DNA of 51,963 nt from contig CAIKAC010000001.1 in assembly GCA_903825305.1 (NCBI GenBank), positions 1 to 51,963 of the forward strand, read 5' to 3'. The notes under the pieces were generated by a model that saw only the letters and a program-made list of their open reading frames with translations, was not told the origin of the DNA and searched no databases. The first letter of the stretch is position 1, and every line of letters starts with the position of its first letter. This DNA is from an uncultured Actinomycetes bacterium. Lineage in GTDB: Bacteria; Actinomycetota; Acidimicrobiia; Acidimicrobiales; RAAP-2. Of this stretch, positions 10,422-16,350 are shown in pieces. A program made the position numbers and the translations under genes.

Positions 10422-11930
10422 TTGCCGGCACCGATCCACAGCACCACCCGGAGCGCCATCGCCATCGGCCTCGGTTTGGTGGCTGGTCTCATTGCTGCTG
10501 CTTCGCTGCCTCCCTTAGCGCTGTGGCCGCTCGGGATTCTGGCCATCGCCATCTTGCTCTTGATGGTGGAAGATGAGTCGCGAGGTTGGCGCTTCACGAT
10601 TGGCTTGGCCTTTGGTCTTGGCCAATTCATCCCCGGACTGTGGTGGGCGCAGCACTTCAGCCTCCCTGGCGCATTCGTCCTCATCGCCGTTGAGGCACTC
10701 TTCGTCGCCGGAGCTTGTGTGGCGATTACACCTCGACGAGGCCGAACGTTAAGCGCCATTGGTGCACTAGTGCTCTTTGAATGGCTCCGCATCTCATGGC
10801 CCCTCGGGGGACTTCCCATTGGTGGTGTGGCCTTGGGTCAGATCAATGGGCCCTTGGCTCCCTTGGCGCGACTTGGCGGCAGCCTGGCCATCATCGCCGG
10901 GGTGGTTATTGCCGGTGCTGGTCTTCGTCACCTCCTCTCGGCATCGGCTTCTCGCAACCAAGGCGATATGAGCGCTGCGCGACGAGCAGTCCTTGGTGGC
11001 GTCATGGTGACCTGTGTTGTTGTCCTGGTACTGGTCGCCATGGTGAGCTCATCAGGCGGACCCGTCGTGAACACCATCCACGTGGCCGCCGTCCAAGGTG
11101 GTGGTAAGCGCGGCACATCGGCGCAACAAACTGATCCAACGGGCGTCACCCTTGCCCAGCTCAAGGCTTTGCGAGAGGTGCCGACGGGCACCAACCTGTG
11201 CGTCTTGCCCGAAGACGTGATCGGTCTCAGCGGACCCTTGGTTGGTTCATGGCAACTCAATGCGCTCTCTGCAGCCGCACGCTCACACCACTGCTATCTC
11301 ACAGCTGGAGTTACCCAGCCCGTGGGCTTCCATCAATTTTTGAATTACGTCGTAGGCATCAACCCATCGGGAAGCATCATCGCTCACGTTGAGAAGGCCC
11401 ACCGCGTGCCCTTCGGTGAATACGTTCCCCTCCGGAGCCTATTGAGCCATGTGGCAAATTTTTCGGGCGTTCCGCGCGACGCCGTCATCGGCCATGGCGT
11501 GGGTACCATGCAACTTGGTACCACTCGACTCGGCGTCTTGATTTCATTTGAAGTGTTCTTCTCCTCGCGTTCCTTGCCACAAATCCGTGACGGAGCCGAG
11601 CTGCTCATCGTCCCCACGAACACCACGTCGTATCCGGGAACCCAGATGCCGAGCGTGGAACTCGCAGCCGCGAGGCTCCAAGCCATGGAGACAGGCCGAA
11701 ACCTTGTTCAAGCGTCACCAACTGGATTTAGCGCCATCATCAGCCCTAATGGCCATGTTGTGGCCAAAAGCTCCCTGAGCAGCCAGGGCGTCGTGAGCGG
11801 AGTCGTGGGTTTGCGAAACGGCCGCACCGTCTATGACGACACTGGGGACCTACCCGTCTTACTCCTCGCCGCGCTCTGCCTTGGCCTTGGATGGGTGCGA
11901 GCGCTTAAGTCGCCGGCTACTTACTCGTAG
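10422..11930 (+). CDS. lnt: Apolipoprotein N-acyltransferase homologue with catalytic Cys replaced by Ser
   Basis: 502 residues from a TTG three bases after hemY (AGGAT 11 bases upstream). The N-terminal half has about six membrane helices and the C-terminal half is a nitrilase-like domain, with one closing helix. In Lnt the triad is Glu-Lys-Cys. Here the Glu is E264 (VLPEDVIG) and the Lys is K325 (VEKAHRVPFGEYVPLR), but the Cys position in the usual ICYE/ICFE motif reads I-S-F-E, with Ser375 (codon TCA, 11544-11546). It may be inactive, a different transferase, or a serine variant. Fold assignment is firm, activity uncertain. Confidence 0.85.
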   Translation: MPAPIHSTTRSAIAIGLGLVAGLIAAASLPPLALWPLGILAIAILLLMVEDESRGWRFTIGLAFGLGQFIPGLWWAQHFSLPGAFVLIAVEALFVAGACVAITPRRGRTLSAIGALVLFEWLRISWPLGGLPIGGVALGQINGPLAPLARLGGSLAIIAGVVIAGAGLRHLLSASASRNQGDMSAARRAVLGGVMVTCVVVLVLVAMVSSSGGPVVNTIHVAAVQGGGKRGTSAQQTDPTGVTLAQLKALREVPTGTNLCVLPEDVIGLSGPLVGSWQLNALSAAARSHHCYLTAGVTQPVGFHQFLNYVVGINPSGSIIAHVEKAHRVPFGEYVPLRSLLSHVANFSGVPRDAVIGHGVGTMQLGTTRLGVLISFEVFFSSRSLPQIRDGAELLIVPTNTTSYPGTQMPSVELAAARLQAMETGRNLVQASPTGFSAIISPNGHVVAKSSLSSQGVVSGVVGLRNGRTVYDDTGDLPVLLLAALCLGLGWVRALKSPATYS

Positions 11931-12415
11931 TACCCCGAGTGGAGGTAGACACAGGGAATGCCTTCGTCGACGTACATCTGGTGGTTCGAAGGGTCATCTT
12001 CAAAGGCCAACAAGATGTCGAAGCCGCGATCACGCAGATCCATGACGACTCCTCGCTTGAAGTCCGTGACCTGTTCGTAGTCATTCCAATTGCGCATGAT
12101 GAGCAAATCCCAGCGCAAGCCATAGCGTTCAAGCCACGCCACCGTCTGTGCTTGTACTCGCTGGGGCCGACCGGTGAGCAAGATGACCTGCAGGCTTTGG
12201 TCTAAGAGCCCCATGAGCGTGGCTATCTCTTCGATGACGGGATCGGAGCCACAGGCTTCAAAGAAGGCCACCCAGTCACGTTGCCCATAATCAAGAAAGT
12301 GTTGGCGACCAGCGGCATCAGAGAGCACGCCATCGATATCGAAGACGACCGCTCGAGATGGCTCAAGCGTACTGTGGTGCTGGAGCCACGCTCCGGTCAG
12401 ATTGGTGTCACTCAT
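11921..12415 (-). CDS. HAD-superfamily phosphatase, polynucleotide-kinase 3'-phosphatase-like
   Basis: 164 residues. The HAD motif I FDIDGVLSD gives nucleophile D26 and acid/base D28, motif II is LLTGRPQ, a conserved Lys lies in DFKRG, and motif III is AFEDDPSN. There is almost no cap domain, so large substrates such as nucleic acid ends or proteins are possible. The spacing resembles the phosphatase half of T4 Pnk; the substrate is unknown. Its 3' end overlaps the convergent lnt-like gene by ten bases, and it diverges from the MprF-like gene with 64 bases between. Confidence 0.82.
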   Translation of the reverse strand: MSDTNLTGAWLQHHSTLEPSRAVVFDIDGVLSDAAGRQHFLDYGQRDWVAFFEACGSDPVIEEIATLMGLLDQSLQVILLTGRPQRVQAQTVAWLERYGLRWDLLIMRNWNDYEQVTDFKRGVVMDLRDRGFDILLAFEDDPSNHQMYVDEGIPCVYLHSGYYE

Positions 12416-12479: not shown

Positions 12480-15400
12480 ATGGTTCTGAGCACTCCTCTC
12501 GAGCACAAACTCGCCATCCCTCTCGGTAGTCGAGTCATGGTGCTTGGATCCCTTGAACTCGGTGCGAGCGCTCATCCCTCGGGTTCCCCTTCTTCGGCCA
12601 TCGTTATTCGTGAGCTCATGCAGTGGGAGGGCCCGGGAGCACTCATCTTGACGGGGCAATTGTTTGGCGACAATGACGTCGATGCCGCCATCGAGCGCCA
12701 TCTCGCCCTCTTTGAGGCCATTCGGAGCTTCGCTTCGCACCCCCATCGATCTGCTTTTTTCGTTCACGATCACGCAGCCGGCCACGAATTTTCGGCAGAG
12801 CGATTGCAAACCTTCAACCTGAACGTGGTCGATCACCTTGAGGTTCGCTGCACCACGGCGACCGGTGAGCGTCGTGTCCTCGTCACGAGCTCAAGCAATC
12901 AGCGCGATGTGAACACGGAGATGATTGAGGGCGCCCCGTGGCTTGAGGGTGCTGAATATCTCGATGAGCCAGGTGCGCTTCGGCGATTCACCCAATCACG
13001 AACCCTTTATCGCCGGCTTTCCAAACTGGTGTGGATCCCGCCCGTAGTCGCCGTGATCGTCGCCTTGCTGTCTGCCACCACCTTGGTGAGCAACTCACTC
13101 AAACGCATCGCCATCCACGCCAAGGGACATCGCAAAGACATCATCACCGAGATCACCAATGCCAATTGGGGCGAGCGCCTCCTCGTCGCGCTTATTGCGG
13201 TCATCGTGGTTGAAGCAATCGTTGGCCTCATTGCCACCTTCTTGGCCCGTCGAGCCTTCGATCACGCCACGCTGATGCCAAGCAATTCCGCTTCCGACAT
13301 CGGTACCGAATCAGCTGATCAAGACCTCATCGCCGATCAAGACTCCCTCGATGAGGTACGGCGTTATCTTGCCGATGGCGGCACGGGGGTCATCACCTGT
13401 GGTGGCCGATCACCTTCGCTGCTGCGCCTTGACGCTGGGTTCTTCGCCACCTTGGGCAGTTCAGGGATGGTCGTCCGAGAACACCAAGGCCGCTTAGGCC
13501 TGCCGCCCGTATTTGTGGCTCACCAGCAAGTTGCGTTCCTTGACCTTGAGACCGGCGCTGATATTCACGTGCGCCTCAGCGCCCAAGATCATGAGCTCCA
13601 AGAGGCAAGTTTGCTCGAGCGCCTTACAACGAGTGACTGCGTGGCGGAGATTCCCCCTCATCGAGGTGCTCCCCAGCTCATTGCCTCGTGGCCAACCGGT
13701 CATTCGTGGCCTCCAGCCTCTGAACAAACTGCTGCCTTTCGCAGCGATCGCCGCATCAAGCGCTTCGCTGCAGCGGCCTTGCTCATCACGGGCTTACTCG
13801 ACGTGCTCGTCGCCATCTCCCCACCGCTGCGCAGTCGCCTCCACGACATCTTGACCTATCTCCCCTTGGGAGCATCCCAGGCCGCTGCCGCGGTCGTTGC
13901 GGTCATCGGCATCTGTCTCGTGATGTTGGCCCGCGGTATTTTGCGAGGACAACGTCGAAGTTGGATTGCTGCGGTGATCTTGCTGGCCTCGTCCATTGTG
14001 TTCCACCTCATCCACGCTGGCTCCCTCGGAGCTGCCAGCGTTTCCATTGCCGTCCTTGTTCTCCTCATCGTGAAGCGTGGGTGCTTTAGCGCCTCGACGG
14101 ATCGACGCAGTCTGGCCACGGCAGCTCCGGCGCTCTTCACCATTGCGGGGGTAGCCATTGCTGCTGGTTTCATCGGCGTGGAACTCTCGGATCTTCGCCA
14201 CCACCACCCCCTGCCTGCTTGGCCGCTCGTCATTGTCGCGGTAGCCGAGCGAATGGTCGGACTCTCCACCATTGCCTTGCCTGATCACATTGATGACTTT
14301 GTCTACCCCACCATGCTCACCGTGGGGATCTGCCTTCTCATTGCCACGCTGTATTTGCTCACTCGGCCGGTGGTGGATCGACGACTCTCTGATCACCATG
14401 GTGCGGCTCAGCGTCGAATTGCCGAAGCGCGCGCTCGCGACATTGTGCAGCGTCACGGTCGAGGAACCCTTGACTTTTTTGCGCTCCGCGACGATAAGCA
14501 GTTTTTCTTTTTTGGTGACTCGGTGGTGGCCTACGCCGTCTTTGGTGGGATCGCGCTGGCGTCTCCCGACCCCATTGGGCCCGAACAAGAGCGAGTCCAA
14601 GTGTGGGCTGCTTTTAAGAGTTTTTGTGATTCCCACGCGTGGACACCAGCGGTGACCGGAGCTGCCGAAGGATGGTTGGAGGTCTACACCGATGCTGGCA
14701 TGCGCCACATCTACCTCGGTGACGAAGCTGTGGTCAATGTCCAAACCTTCAGCCTTGAAGGCGGAAAGATGAAGGGGTTACGCCAGGCCAACACCCGAGT
14801 GGCCCGTAATGGCTACACCGTGGAATTCCTTGACCCAGCCAAGATTGATCCTGCTCGCGTACCCGCCCTCGTCGAACTTATGGAAATGCTGCGACGAGGT
14901 GAGCAAGAGCGCGGCTACTCCATGATGCTTGGTCGGCTCTTCAACCCCAAAGACACCGGGTTGTTGCTTACGGTTGTCTCCGATCCCCAGGGCCACCCCG
15001 TCGCCATGTGTCACTTCGTCCCCTCACCGGCCATCAATGGCTTCAGTCTCGACATGATGAGGCGCGACCCTGGTGATCATCCCAATGGCTTGCTTGATTT
15101 CTGTCTCTGCCAAACCTTTGAGTACCTAAAAGCCCAAGGGGCGACCGGTGTGAGCTTGAACTTTGCCGCCTTCCGATCGATTCTCGACGGCGAACGTGGC
15201 GAAGGCATCACCACCAAGATTGAGCGCTGGGGTCTCAAGCGGATGAGCTCCATTCTCCCTATTGAGTCGCTGTGGCGCTTTAATGAGAAATACAACCCCG
15301 AATGGCTCGCCCGTTACCTCGTCTACGCCGCACCAGAGCAACTCTTGCCAACGGCAGCTGCGGCACTGCGGGCTGAATCGCTTACCGAGATTCCCCTCGT

Positions 15401-15497
15401 TGGTCGCCTGCTGGCATCAGATCCTTCCAACCGGCCAGCAACGGTCGTTCCCGAAGAGCTCTTGGAATCGAGTACCGCTAGCCCAAGCGTCGACTAA
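12480..15497 (+). CDS. MprF/LysX-type lysylphosphatidylglycerol synthase-like protein with an N-terminal pseudo-metallophosphoesterase
   Basis: About 1005 residues. From about residue 660 to 955 it matches the DUF2156 GNAT-like aminoacyl-transferase domain of MprF (DFFALRDDKQFFF, FGDSVVAYAV, GRLFNPKDTGLLL, GVSLNFAAFRSIL). A block of six or seven membrane helices precedes it (about 427-637). Residues 1-180 and 300-400 look like the two halves of a calcineurin-like phosphoesterase, interrupted by two membrane helices (about 183-206 and 234-256). However, the expected D-x-H, GD, GNHD and GHTH ligand motifs read GSLELG, TGQLF, VHDHA and CGGRS, so metal binding is probably lost. MprF-family proteins add Lys to phosphatidylglycerol. 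The ATG at 12480 leaves room for a divergent promoter; an in-frame ATG at 12432 would add 16 residues. Confidence 0.85.
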   Translation: MVLSTPLEHKLAIPLGSRVMVLGSLELGASAHPSGSPSSAIVIRELMQWEGPGALILTGQLFGDNDVDAAIERHLALFEAIRSFASHPHRSAFFVHDHAAGHEFSAERLQTFNLNVVDHLEVRCTTATGERRVLVTSSSNQRDVNTEMIEGAPWLEGAEYLDEPGALRRFTQSRTLYRRLSKLVWIPPVVAVIVALLSATTLVSNSLKRIAIHAKGHRKDIITEITNANWGERLLVALIAVIVVEAIVGLIATFLARRAFDHATLMPSNSASDIGTESADQDLIADQDSLDEVRRYLADGGTGVITCGGRSPSLLRLDAGFFATLGSSGMVVREHQGRLGLPPVFVAHQQVAFLDLETGADIHVRLSAQDHELQEASLLERLTTSDCVAEIPPHRGAPQLIASWPTGHSWPPASEQTAAFRSDRRIKRFAAAALLITGLLDVLVAISPPLRSRLHDILTYLPLGASQAAAAVVAVIGICLVMLARGILRGQRRSWIAAVILLASSIVFHLIHAGSLGAASVSIAVLVLLIVKRGCFSASTDRRSLATAAPALFTIAGVAIAAGFIGVELSDLRHHHPLPAWPLVIVAVAERMVGLSTIALPDHIDDFVYPTMLTVGICLLIATLYLLTRPVVDRRLSDHHGAAQRRIAEARARDIVQRHGRGTLDFFALRDDKQFFFFGDSVVAYAVFGGIALASPDPIGPEQERVQVWAAFKSFCDSHAWTPAVTGAAEGWLEVYTDAGMRHIYLGDEAVVNVQTFSLEGGKMKGLRQANTRVARNGYTVEFLDPAKIDPARVPALVELMEMLRRGEQERGYSMMLGRLFNPKDTGLLLTVVSDPQGHPVAMCHFVPSPAINGFSLDMMRRDPGDHPNGLLDFCLCQTFEYLKAQGATGVSLNFAAFRSILDGERGEGITTKIERWGLKRMSSILPIESLWRFNEKYNPEWLARYLVYAAPEQLLPTAAAALRAESLTEIPLVGRLLASDPSNRPATVVPEELLESSTASPSVD

Positions 15498-16350
15498 GCG
15501 CTTCGACGAACACTTCGGCCGCCGACGGTTCAAAGCCAAGAAACAAACTGGGCTCTGTGGCTTCGAACTCAATCACGACTGGTCCTTGGTCGGTGGGGAC
15601 GAGATCCACCCGGGCATAGAGCAAAGGTGCGCTAAGCCCTAGGTGAGCAACCACGCCAGCGTGAGCAGCCACCGCAACCAGCTGCTGTGCTTCATTGGAA
15701 ACTCGTGCACTGATTTGTTCTTGACGAAAGAGCCGTGAGCGATCCAGAGCGTCAGCTTTCAACATGGGACCTTTCGCGATTGCATGACTGGGCCAGCCAT
15801 CGATGAGAACGACGGCCGTTTCGTGCTCTTGTTCGACCAAGGAGATGTAGGGCTGCACCATGACGACCTTGCCCTCGTCGAGGAGATCATGCGCATGCTT
15901 GCGGGCTCGTAGCTCGTCTCCGGCATCAAAACGCTCGGCGCCCATGGACCCGGCGCCCACACTTGGCTTGAGCACCAAGGCATCGTCGCGAGCAAAGGAG
16001 AAGGCGTCAAGCTCTTCGTGACTGGCCAGATAGGTCGTGGGAATTGTAGGGATGCCCATGGCAGCCAAGTCTTCGAGGTATCGCTTGTCGGTGTTCCATG
16101 CGACTACCGACGCAGGATTGAAAAGGCGCTCGACGCTCTGTGCCCAGGAAAGAAACTCAGCAAGATGGTCAGTGTAGTCCCAGGTGTTTCGAATTACCGT
16201 GACGTCAAAGTTTGACCAATCCACCCCTTCATCGCGCCAATCCTCAAAGCTCAGTGAAATGCCTCGAGCTTCAGCTACTTGGGCAAGGAGTGCGCTATCT
16301 TCATCACCTTCGGGGAATTGCGCACAGGTCGCAATGGCGACAGAACGCAT
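15478..16350 (-). CDS. ATP-grasp ligase-like protein
   Basis: 290 residues. VIRNTWDYTDHLAEFLSW, NTDKRYLEDLAAMGIPTIPT, LVLKPSVGAGSMGAERF and the C-terminal ARVDLV...VVIEFEATEPS are the features of ATP-grasp enzymes. They match in particular the group often annotated as DcsG-like (O-ureido-serine cyclo-ligase-like). K148-type Lys and the metal-binding Glu near the end are present, so it is probably active, forming an amide or ring from a carboxylate with ATP. The substrate is unknown. Its ATG immediately follows the nuoN stop (TAA-ATG, no gap), so it is probably the last gene of the nuo transcript. Its 3' end overlaps the convergent MprF-like gene by 20 bases. Confidence 0.82.
   Translation of the reverse strand: MRSVAIATCAQFPEGDEDSALLAQVAEARGISLSFEDWRDEGVDWSNFDVTVIRNTWDYTDHLAEFLSWAQSVERLFNPASVVAWNTDKRYLEDLAAMGIPTIPTTYLASHEELDAFSFARDDALVLKPSVGAGSMGAERFDAGDELRARKHAHDLLDEGKVVMVQPYISLVEQEHETAVVLIDGWPSHAIAKGPMLKADALDRSRLFRQEQISARVSNEAQQLVAVAAHAGVVAHLGLSAPLLYARVDLVPTDQGPVVIEFEATEPSLFLGFEPSAAEVFVEALSRRLG

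Follow-up and report, generated by a model that had tools for sequence, protein, structure and literature searches.

What use does a membrane-lipid-modifying enzyme have for a phosphoesterase-like domain that has lost all of its metal ligands? This question is raised by one gene in a 51,963-nucleotide stretch of DNA, hereafter the window, from an uncultured bacterium of the Acidimicrobiales (Actinomycetota; contig CAIKAC010000001.1 of GenBank assembly GCA_903825305.1). The open frame at 12480-15497 on the forward strand is full length and encodes 1005 amino acids; its Met start at 12480 is matched in a relative of the same genus (L002), where the frame between stops begins two codons ahead of the same Met. 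Here, we report that the front part of this protein descends from intact metallophosphoesterases (MPEs), and we suggest, with a probability of roughly 0.6, that it is an LpxH-like module for lipid phosphates, inserted in the membrane and catalytically dead, which the aminoacyl-lipid synthase behind it retains as a partner for lipid binding or for structure. The protein is laid out as follows:

12480..15497, + strand: whole coding sequence, with a pseudo-MPE domain carrying a membrane hairpin, about six transmembrane helices and a lysylphosphatidylglycerol (LPG) synthase domain
12501..12959, + strand: first half of the pseudo-MPE domain (residues 8-160), from the AlphaFold2 model, the LpxH match and the alignment
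12969..13274, + strand: transmembrane hairpin, whose two helices (about 164-209 and 230-265) lie behind motif IV and ahead of the former GHTH motif
13326..13694, + strand: second half of the pseudo-MPE domain (residues 283-405), from the AlphaFold2 model and the LpxH match
13740..14399, + strand: membrane part of the synthase half (residues 421-640), with about six helices
14439..15326, + strand: LPG_synthase_C, a GNAT-type aminoacyl-lipid synthase domain (residues 654-949)

The former metal site can be followed motif by motif, together with two segments that were kept:

12546..12563, + strand: former motif I (SDLHL in intact relatives), now GSLELG (residues 23-28), D to S and H to E
12651..12665, + strand: former motif II (AGD), now TGQLF (residues 58-62), D to Q
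12762..12776, + strand: former motif III (PGNHD), now VHDHA (residues 95-99), where the alignment shows a deletion of three residues, the Asn ligand among them
12888..12917, + strand: former motif IV (HGNQLDPYN in the intact relative L022), now SSSNQRDVNT, His ligand to Ser
12996..13016, + strand: SRTLYRR (residues 173-179) at the mouth of the hairpin, retained
13398..13412, + strand: former motif V (GHTH), now CGGRS (residues 307-311), both His gone
13491..13514, + strand: RLGLPPVF segment, from residue 338, a form of which is common to intact MPE relatives

An active MPE has seven metal ligands (D, H, D, N, H, H, H), as listed in part of the LpxH paper (PMC5016852). Alignment with intact relatives showed that the protein of the window keeps none of them (D24 to S, H26 to E, D60 to Q, Asn deleted, H137 to S, H308 to G and H310 to R). 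When motif III is read without a gap, H98 takes the place of the catalytic His and D97 that of the Asn ligand, and the Asn is absent in both readings. The search for an ordered alternative motif set in residues 1-420 found none, nor any GN[HR], G[HN]xH or HG[DHN], and the motif-like letters present there are isolated (GD at 63, DxH at 361, HxH at 87 and 96). It is almost certain that the front domain is a pseudo-MPE without metal-dependent phosphoesterase activity. The original prediction, made from the letters of the sequence, had described such a loss, and the strings that it quoted for motifs I, II, III and V are exact, at the residues it gave; its GLPPVF-type segment, which it had likened to actinobacterial phosphoesterases, does occur in a form shared by intact relatives and in the consensus of standalone MPEs (alignment A5).

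The same prediction had placed a calcineurin-like fold, split by two membrane helices, in the N-terminal part, and structure modelling bore this out. An AlphaFold2 model of residues 1-420, built with 55 relatives, reached a predicted local distance difference test score (pLDDT) of 85.4 and a predicted template modelling score (pTM) of 0.84, and residues about 8-406 were modelled as an MPE fold interrupted by a transmembrane hairpin. Foldseek against PDB returned 22 matches at E 1e-3 or better, all of them LpxH, with a best E value of 3.3e-6 (probability 1.00); purple acid phosphatases, Mre11 and other MPEs ranked next. On re-examination of the list, LpxH structures had Z scores of 14.5-15.7 over 180-205 residues, after which came YfcE, Vps29 and the B-subunits of polymerases delta, epsilon and zeta. 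The hairpin is also present in intact relatives and is thus not tied to ligand loss.

At the sequence level, no Pfam family scored above its cut-off on residues 1-408 in a library scan of the protein. PDB sequence searches with the front domain (profile A1, L022 and A5) found no MPE, so the link to LpxH specifically rests on the fold and on weak NCBIfam matches of intact relatives, such as L022 (26.7 bits; cut-off 134); the window's own protein gave no NCBIfam LpxH match at E 1. Pfam Metallophos matched all five intact domains tested (L021, L022 and three standalone proteins) and none of the eight ligand-less domains tested. Kinship with MPEs in general stands on other ground: a profile of degenerate domains only (A3) aligned by hhalign to five standalone intact MPEs (A5) with a probability of 99.8 and an E value of 2.3e-29 over 386 columns spanning the hairpin, which makes the homology independent of intermediates and of predicted structure. 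The front domain therefore descends from intact MPEs and belongs to the metallophosphoesterase superfamily by descent.

To this domain is joined a synthase half, in which the MprF motifs claimed by the original prediction correspond to LPG_synthase_C (PF09924; residues 654-949), with 223.2 bits against a Pfam gathering cut-off of 27.5. It is the sole confident Pfam domain of the protein, and a pseudoenzyme domain and a lipid-aminoacylating type of enzyme share one open frame, as had been proposed. The best NCBIfam score was that of LysX (281 bits; equivalog cut-off 742), followed by MprF (227.7 bits; equivalog cut-off 600), whose match begins at profile position 323; these matches start at residues 421 and 427 of the protein, respectively. 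Its relatives in PDB by sequence were MprF and aminoacyl-phosphatidylglycerol (PG) synthases, and a full-length AlphaFold2 model (pLDDT 77.5, pTM 0.72) matched MprF (E 2.4e-23) and more weakly LpxH (best 1.7e-4). The synthase motifs DK (D672, K673) and DxxR (D858, R861) are present and invariant in all 39 aligned proteins (alignment A4), and in comparison with the Pseudomonas enzyme (4v34) KLGE reads YLGD and FKxK reads FNEK. We presume that the residue numbers of Staphylococcus aureus MprF can be placed on these four motifs; in that enzyme K547, K621, E624, D731, R734 and K806 are essential, according to part of the published account (PMC2774229). Judged by its sequence, the gene probably encodes a LysX/MprF-type enzyme that attaches an amino acid to membrane lipids.

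Relatives were drawn from 41 kin genomes (27 matching the whole protein), 247 genomes of the class (30 matching the front-domain profile), 396 genomes of the phylum (40 matching; this sample overlaps that of the class) and named loci, which are the nearest relatives, the best 80 of 247. By title, 77 of these 80 are actinobacterial, and the two Acidobacteria and one Candidatus Saccharibacteria were taken as mislabelled. After removal of 22 duplicates from 152 loci with a front-domain match, 130 distinct front domains were left, 114 fused to a synthase and 16 standalone (L021, L062-L076). Eleven of the standalone domains have all seven ligands, and the other five have five or six, with a matched stretch that starts behind motif I. 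Among the fused domains, only six are complete (L022, L036, L037, L038, L060 and L061) and two are partial (L044 with four ligands, L059 with five), while 106 keep 0-2, namely none in 12, one in 86 and two in eight; contig ends truncate the beginning of three fused rows (L097, L120 and L130), whose early ligands are read as gaps. The protein of the window and L002 have zero ligands each, and all 65 distinct new rows from the best 80 of 247 keep 0-2 of the seven. Ligand loss is conserved across most of the relatives found, the point that the original prediction had proposed to check in an alignment of homologues.

In the class sample, PF09924 was detected in 58 of 247 genomes and the MPE fusion in at least 29 of these 58 (front-domain profile, E 1e-8); the sample was collected with the front-domain profile, and proteins that have lost the domain are under-counted in it. 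The 29 fused genomes comprise three with an intact site (G228, G243 and G254), one with a partial site (G145) and 25 without ligands. In one further genome (G026) the MPE is standalone and intact, and PF09924 gave no match there at E 1e-15.

Ligand loss may have happened once or more than once. For synthase trees, 118 synthase halves were thinned to 49 by identity, and a further 10 were dropped from the careful tree, from which the quick tree differs in details. In the synthase-half trees the protein of the window groups with ligand-less proteins of its family. The ligand-less rows need three changes on the synthase tree and form a single clade in none of 200 bootstrap trees. Such a clade was rejected when set against all 11 other rows (p 0.008), but not against the six intact rows alone (p 0.36).

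We then asked what has been conserved in these domains besides the ligands. Nine intact rows share 78 near-invariant columns, which consist of nine motif positions (the seven ligands, the catalytic His and the next Asp) and 69 others. Mean retention in the 106 ligand-less rows was 0.21 for the motif columns versus 0.52 for the other 69; this comparison is partly circular, as rows had been picked by ligand count, and it was hence rerun on all 108 fused rows outside the intact core, with 0.22 for ligand columns versus 0.53 for the others (Mann-Whitney p 0.003, with columns that are not independent of each other). Losses were uneven within the site: H2, D3, N4, H7, H8 and H9 are kept in 0-0.08 of the 106 rows and the catalytic His in 0.14, D1 in 0.82 and the last Asp (D6) in 0.79. 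Among the 69 non-ligand columns, 17 have a retention of at least 90%. Four positions at the mouth of the hairpin, S173, R174, Y177 and R178 (SRxxYR), are kept in 96-98% of the 106 ligand-less domains, and together with these G320, G326, E380 and P411 span a range of 96-100%.

In 17 pairs of ligand-less relatives, the ratio of nonsynonymous to synonymous substitution rates (dN/dS) was 0.10-0.59 for the first half of the front domain, 0.02-0.48 for the second half and 0.016-0.19 for the synthase, with dS possibly underestimated in these GC-rich genes. Values below 1 in all 17 pairs indicate that the front domain is under purifying selection, weaker than that on the synthase. Of the four remaining pairs among the 21 computed, two are intact; L001-L002 has a saturated dS and thus gives no reliable dN/dS for the protein of the window itself, and L006-L098 is too distant (first half 1.15, second half 0.48, synthase 0.28). 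The conserved loss of ligands, together with the retention of SRxxYR, points to a family-wide pseudoenzyme domain under selection.

How could such a domain have arisen? LpxH offers the closest parallel. In Pseudomonas aeruginosa LpxH a helical insertion (Leu118-Val174) lies between the ligands His114 and His195, and lipid X sits between this membrane-facing insertion and the catalytic core, as described in part of the LpxH paper (PMC5016852). Like LpxH, which is the best structural match, the front domain has an insertion at the same place in the fold; unlike LpxH, it lacks all seven Mn ligands, it carries a transmembrane hairpin where LpxH has a four-helix insertion, and it is fused to a synthase. 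The ancestral domain would have been a hydrolase of a membrane lipid phosphate, with its substrate lodged between the catalytic core and the hairpin in the manner of LpxH. Fusion would then have placed a lipid-handling domain beside a synthase with a lipid acceptor (PG or diacylglycerol). In the lineage of the window, hydrolysis would have been lost and the arginine-rich SRxxYR site at the hairpin mouth kept, such that the present domain might bind or position a lipid, pack against the synthase and cleave nothing. We consider it an even bet that the domain was retained to bind or position lipid and not for structure only.

Several observations weigh against this proposal. The loss was not confined to ligands: 23 of the 69 non-ligand columns, a group that covers much of the loop around motif IV, survive in fewer than 25% of rows. 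Intact relatives have SRxxYR as well, and the motif may serve structure only. The synthase is more constrained than the front domain, which could be a slowly eroding relic. One protein (L024) retains about half of the domain and has lost the hairpin, and L025, L026 and L028 are without the domain, so the synthase can do without it. Finally, charge counts around the hairpin gave no decision on topology. In the model both MPE halves belong to one fold, and an even number of helices appears to lie between them and the synthase. The synthase domains of MprF and LysX are cytoplasmic and that of LysX2 lies outside, as far as part of one source tells (PMC8974105), and for this reason topology is only inferred here.

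Other explanations should be weighed against the same data. A regulatory or scaffold domain, similar to Vps29 or polymerase B-subunits, might bind a protein partner or a ligand and thereby control the synthase; the original prediction had proposed a pseudo-enzyme sensor or scaffold, possibly controlling lysinylation of membrane lipids. Both are in the list of fold matches, and we take them to represent MPE folds used as scaffolds; the positions conserved outside the old metal site would also suit such a role. Vps29 and the polymerase B-subunits have a reduced or absent metal site and a non-catalytic use, but they belong to soluble eukaryotic complexes with no membrane hairpin and no lipid enzyme. 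No obvious partner gene was present among the neighbours, and distant partners were not sought. We hold this explanation to be tentatively possible; it overlaps with that of a lipid-binding or structural partner, and the odds of the two are not exclusive.

A second explanation is that the MPE domain is jobless, tolerated as a folded spacer before its deletion, with the synthase working alone. The first half, which evolves several times faster than the synthase, the 23 mostly lost columns, and the proteins with a truncated domain or none would all be expected of a relic. However, 25 of the 29 fused genomes in the class sample keep the domain despite lost ligands, dN/dS is below 1 in every one of the 17 pairs, some motifs are kept in 96-100% of rows, and residues 1-420 yield a confident model. 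We consider an eroding relic unlikely.

It is highly improbable that the domain is still an enzyme that uses one metal or another mechanism on a lipid headgroup: although 82% and 79% of ligand-less relatives retain D1 and D6, respectively, the protein of the window has lost D1 too, together with the other ligands, and no replacement motif set was found in residues 1-420. A mis-assembly or false fusion of two neighbouring genes, which the existence of related standalone MPEs (L021, L062-L076) might suggest, is refuted by the recurrence of the same fusion in many assemblies (80 of the 80 named loci and 29 of the 247 class genomes).

Returning to a retained lipid-binding or structural partner, a more specific version is conceivable, in which the hairpin MPE of intact fusions makes the acceptor lipid (PG from PG-phosphate, or diacylglycerol from phosphatidate) and passes it through the membrane to the synthase, and in which the domain has become, in the lineage of the window, a clamp that loads lipid without catalysis and so determines the choice of lipid for aminoacylation. 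We regard this version as doubtful.

Among known systems, MprF, the bifunctional LPG flippase/synthase, shares the synthase domain and the adjoining membrane helices, but its flippase half is unmatched in the protein of the window, which has the MPE domain in its place. LysX, the best NCBIfam score, and AlaDAGS have six predicted transmembrane helices and a GNAT-like domain, and lysyl-diacylglycerol is the reported product of LysX in Corynebacterium and mycobacteria, according to part of one source (PMC10580965). Unlike LysX, the protein of the window lacks a lysyl-tRNA synthetase (LysRS) domain (the match ends at profile position 577 of 1102) and has the extra MPE domain. Lysine is not claimed here as the amino acid, as no LysRS was seen beside the gene, and the LysRS of its own genome is on another contig. 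Elsewhere, the intact fusion L022 (stretch L166, G012:C18, 7618-12278) immediately follows the one strong LysRS match in its genome, the two other matches being 27-28% identical, which may be a hint at lysine. The L022 genome also holds a ligand-less copy (L004).

The surroundings of the fusion may be summarized briefly. Pfam assigns the upstream genes to uroporphyrinogen decarboxylase, ferrochelatase, a flavin amine oxidase type, an apolipoprotein N-acyltransferase-like protein and a divergent HAD phosphatase. Two genes flank it on the opposite strand:

11921-12415, - strand: divergent HAD phosphatase of the PNKP type, with a weaker match to the lipin-like LNS2 family
15478-16350, - strand: 290-residue protein, convergent with the fusion and overlapping its 3' end

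Homologues of the HAD gene occur in 70 and those of the 290-residue protein in 54 of the 80 named loci, with loci cut by contig ends included. A lipid phosphatase role of the HAD neighbour may fit, judging from its family matches. The 290-residue protein has no Pfam match at E 1e-3 and looks ATP-grasp-like by eye, and genes further downstream were read by eye as nuoN and nuoM. A second, short PF09924 protein (350-aa frame) is present in the same genome (G000:C5:150578-151378). Among relatives, both partial fusions adjoin a PF00756 esterase gene (L167 4585-5736; L168 4566-6101), the products being possible aminoacyl-lipid hydrolases, and a glycosyltransferase of the monogalactosyldiacylglycerol synthase type (L159 7846-9018) next to a standalone intact hairpin MPE may hint at a lipid substrate.

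The architectures described for the MprF family, in parts of two sources (PMC10580965, PMC8974105), are a flippase joined to a synthase in MprF, a membrane domain joined to a synthase in LysX and AlaDAGS, of which LysX has a LysRS in addition, and LysX2 with its outside-facing domain. Our search of a literature without most subscription journals and without any bioRxiv preprints did not find the present architecture described, which is weak evidence of novelty. To the known architectures the family described here adds an LpxH-like domain before the synthase, with a site that is intact in some lineages and dead in most. The front domain also points to pseudoenzyme domains that Pfam misses, and the series of standalone intact, fused intact, fused dead and absent domains may be used to study the conversion of a lipid phosphatase into a non-catalytic component of an enzyme that modifies lipids.

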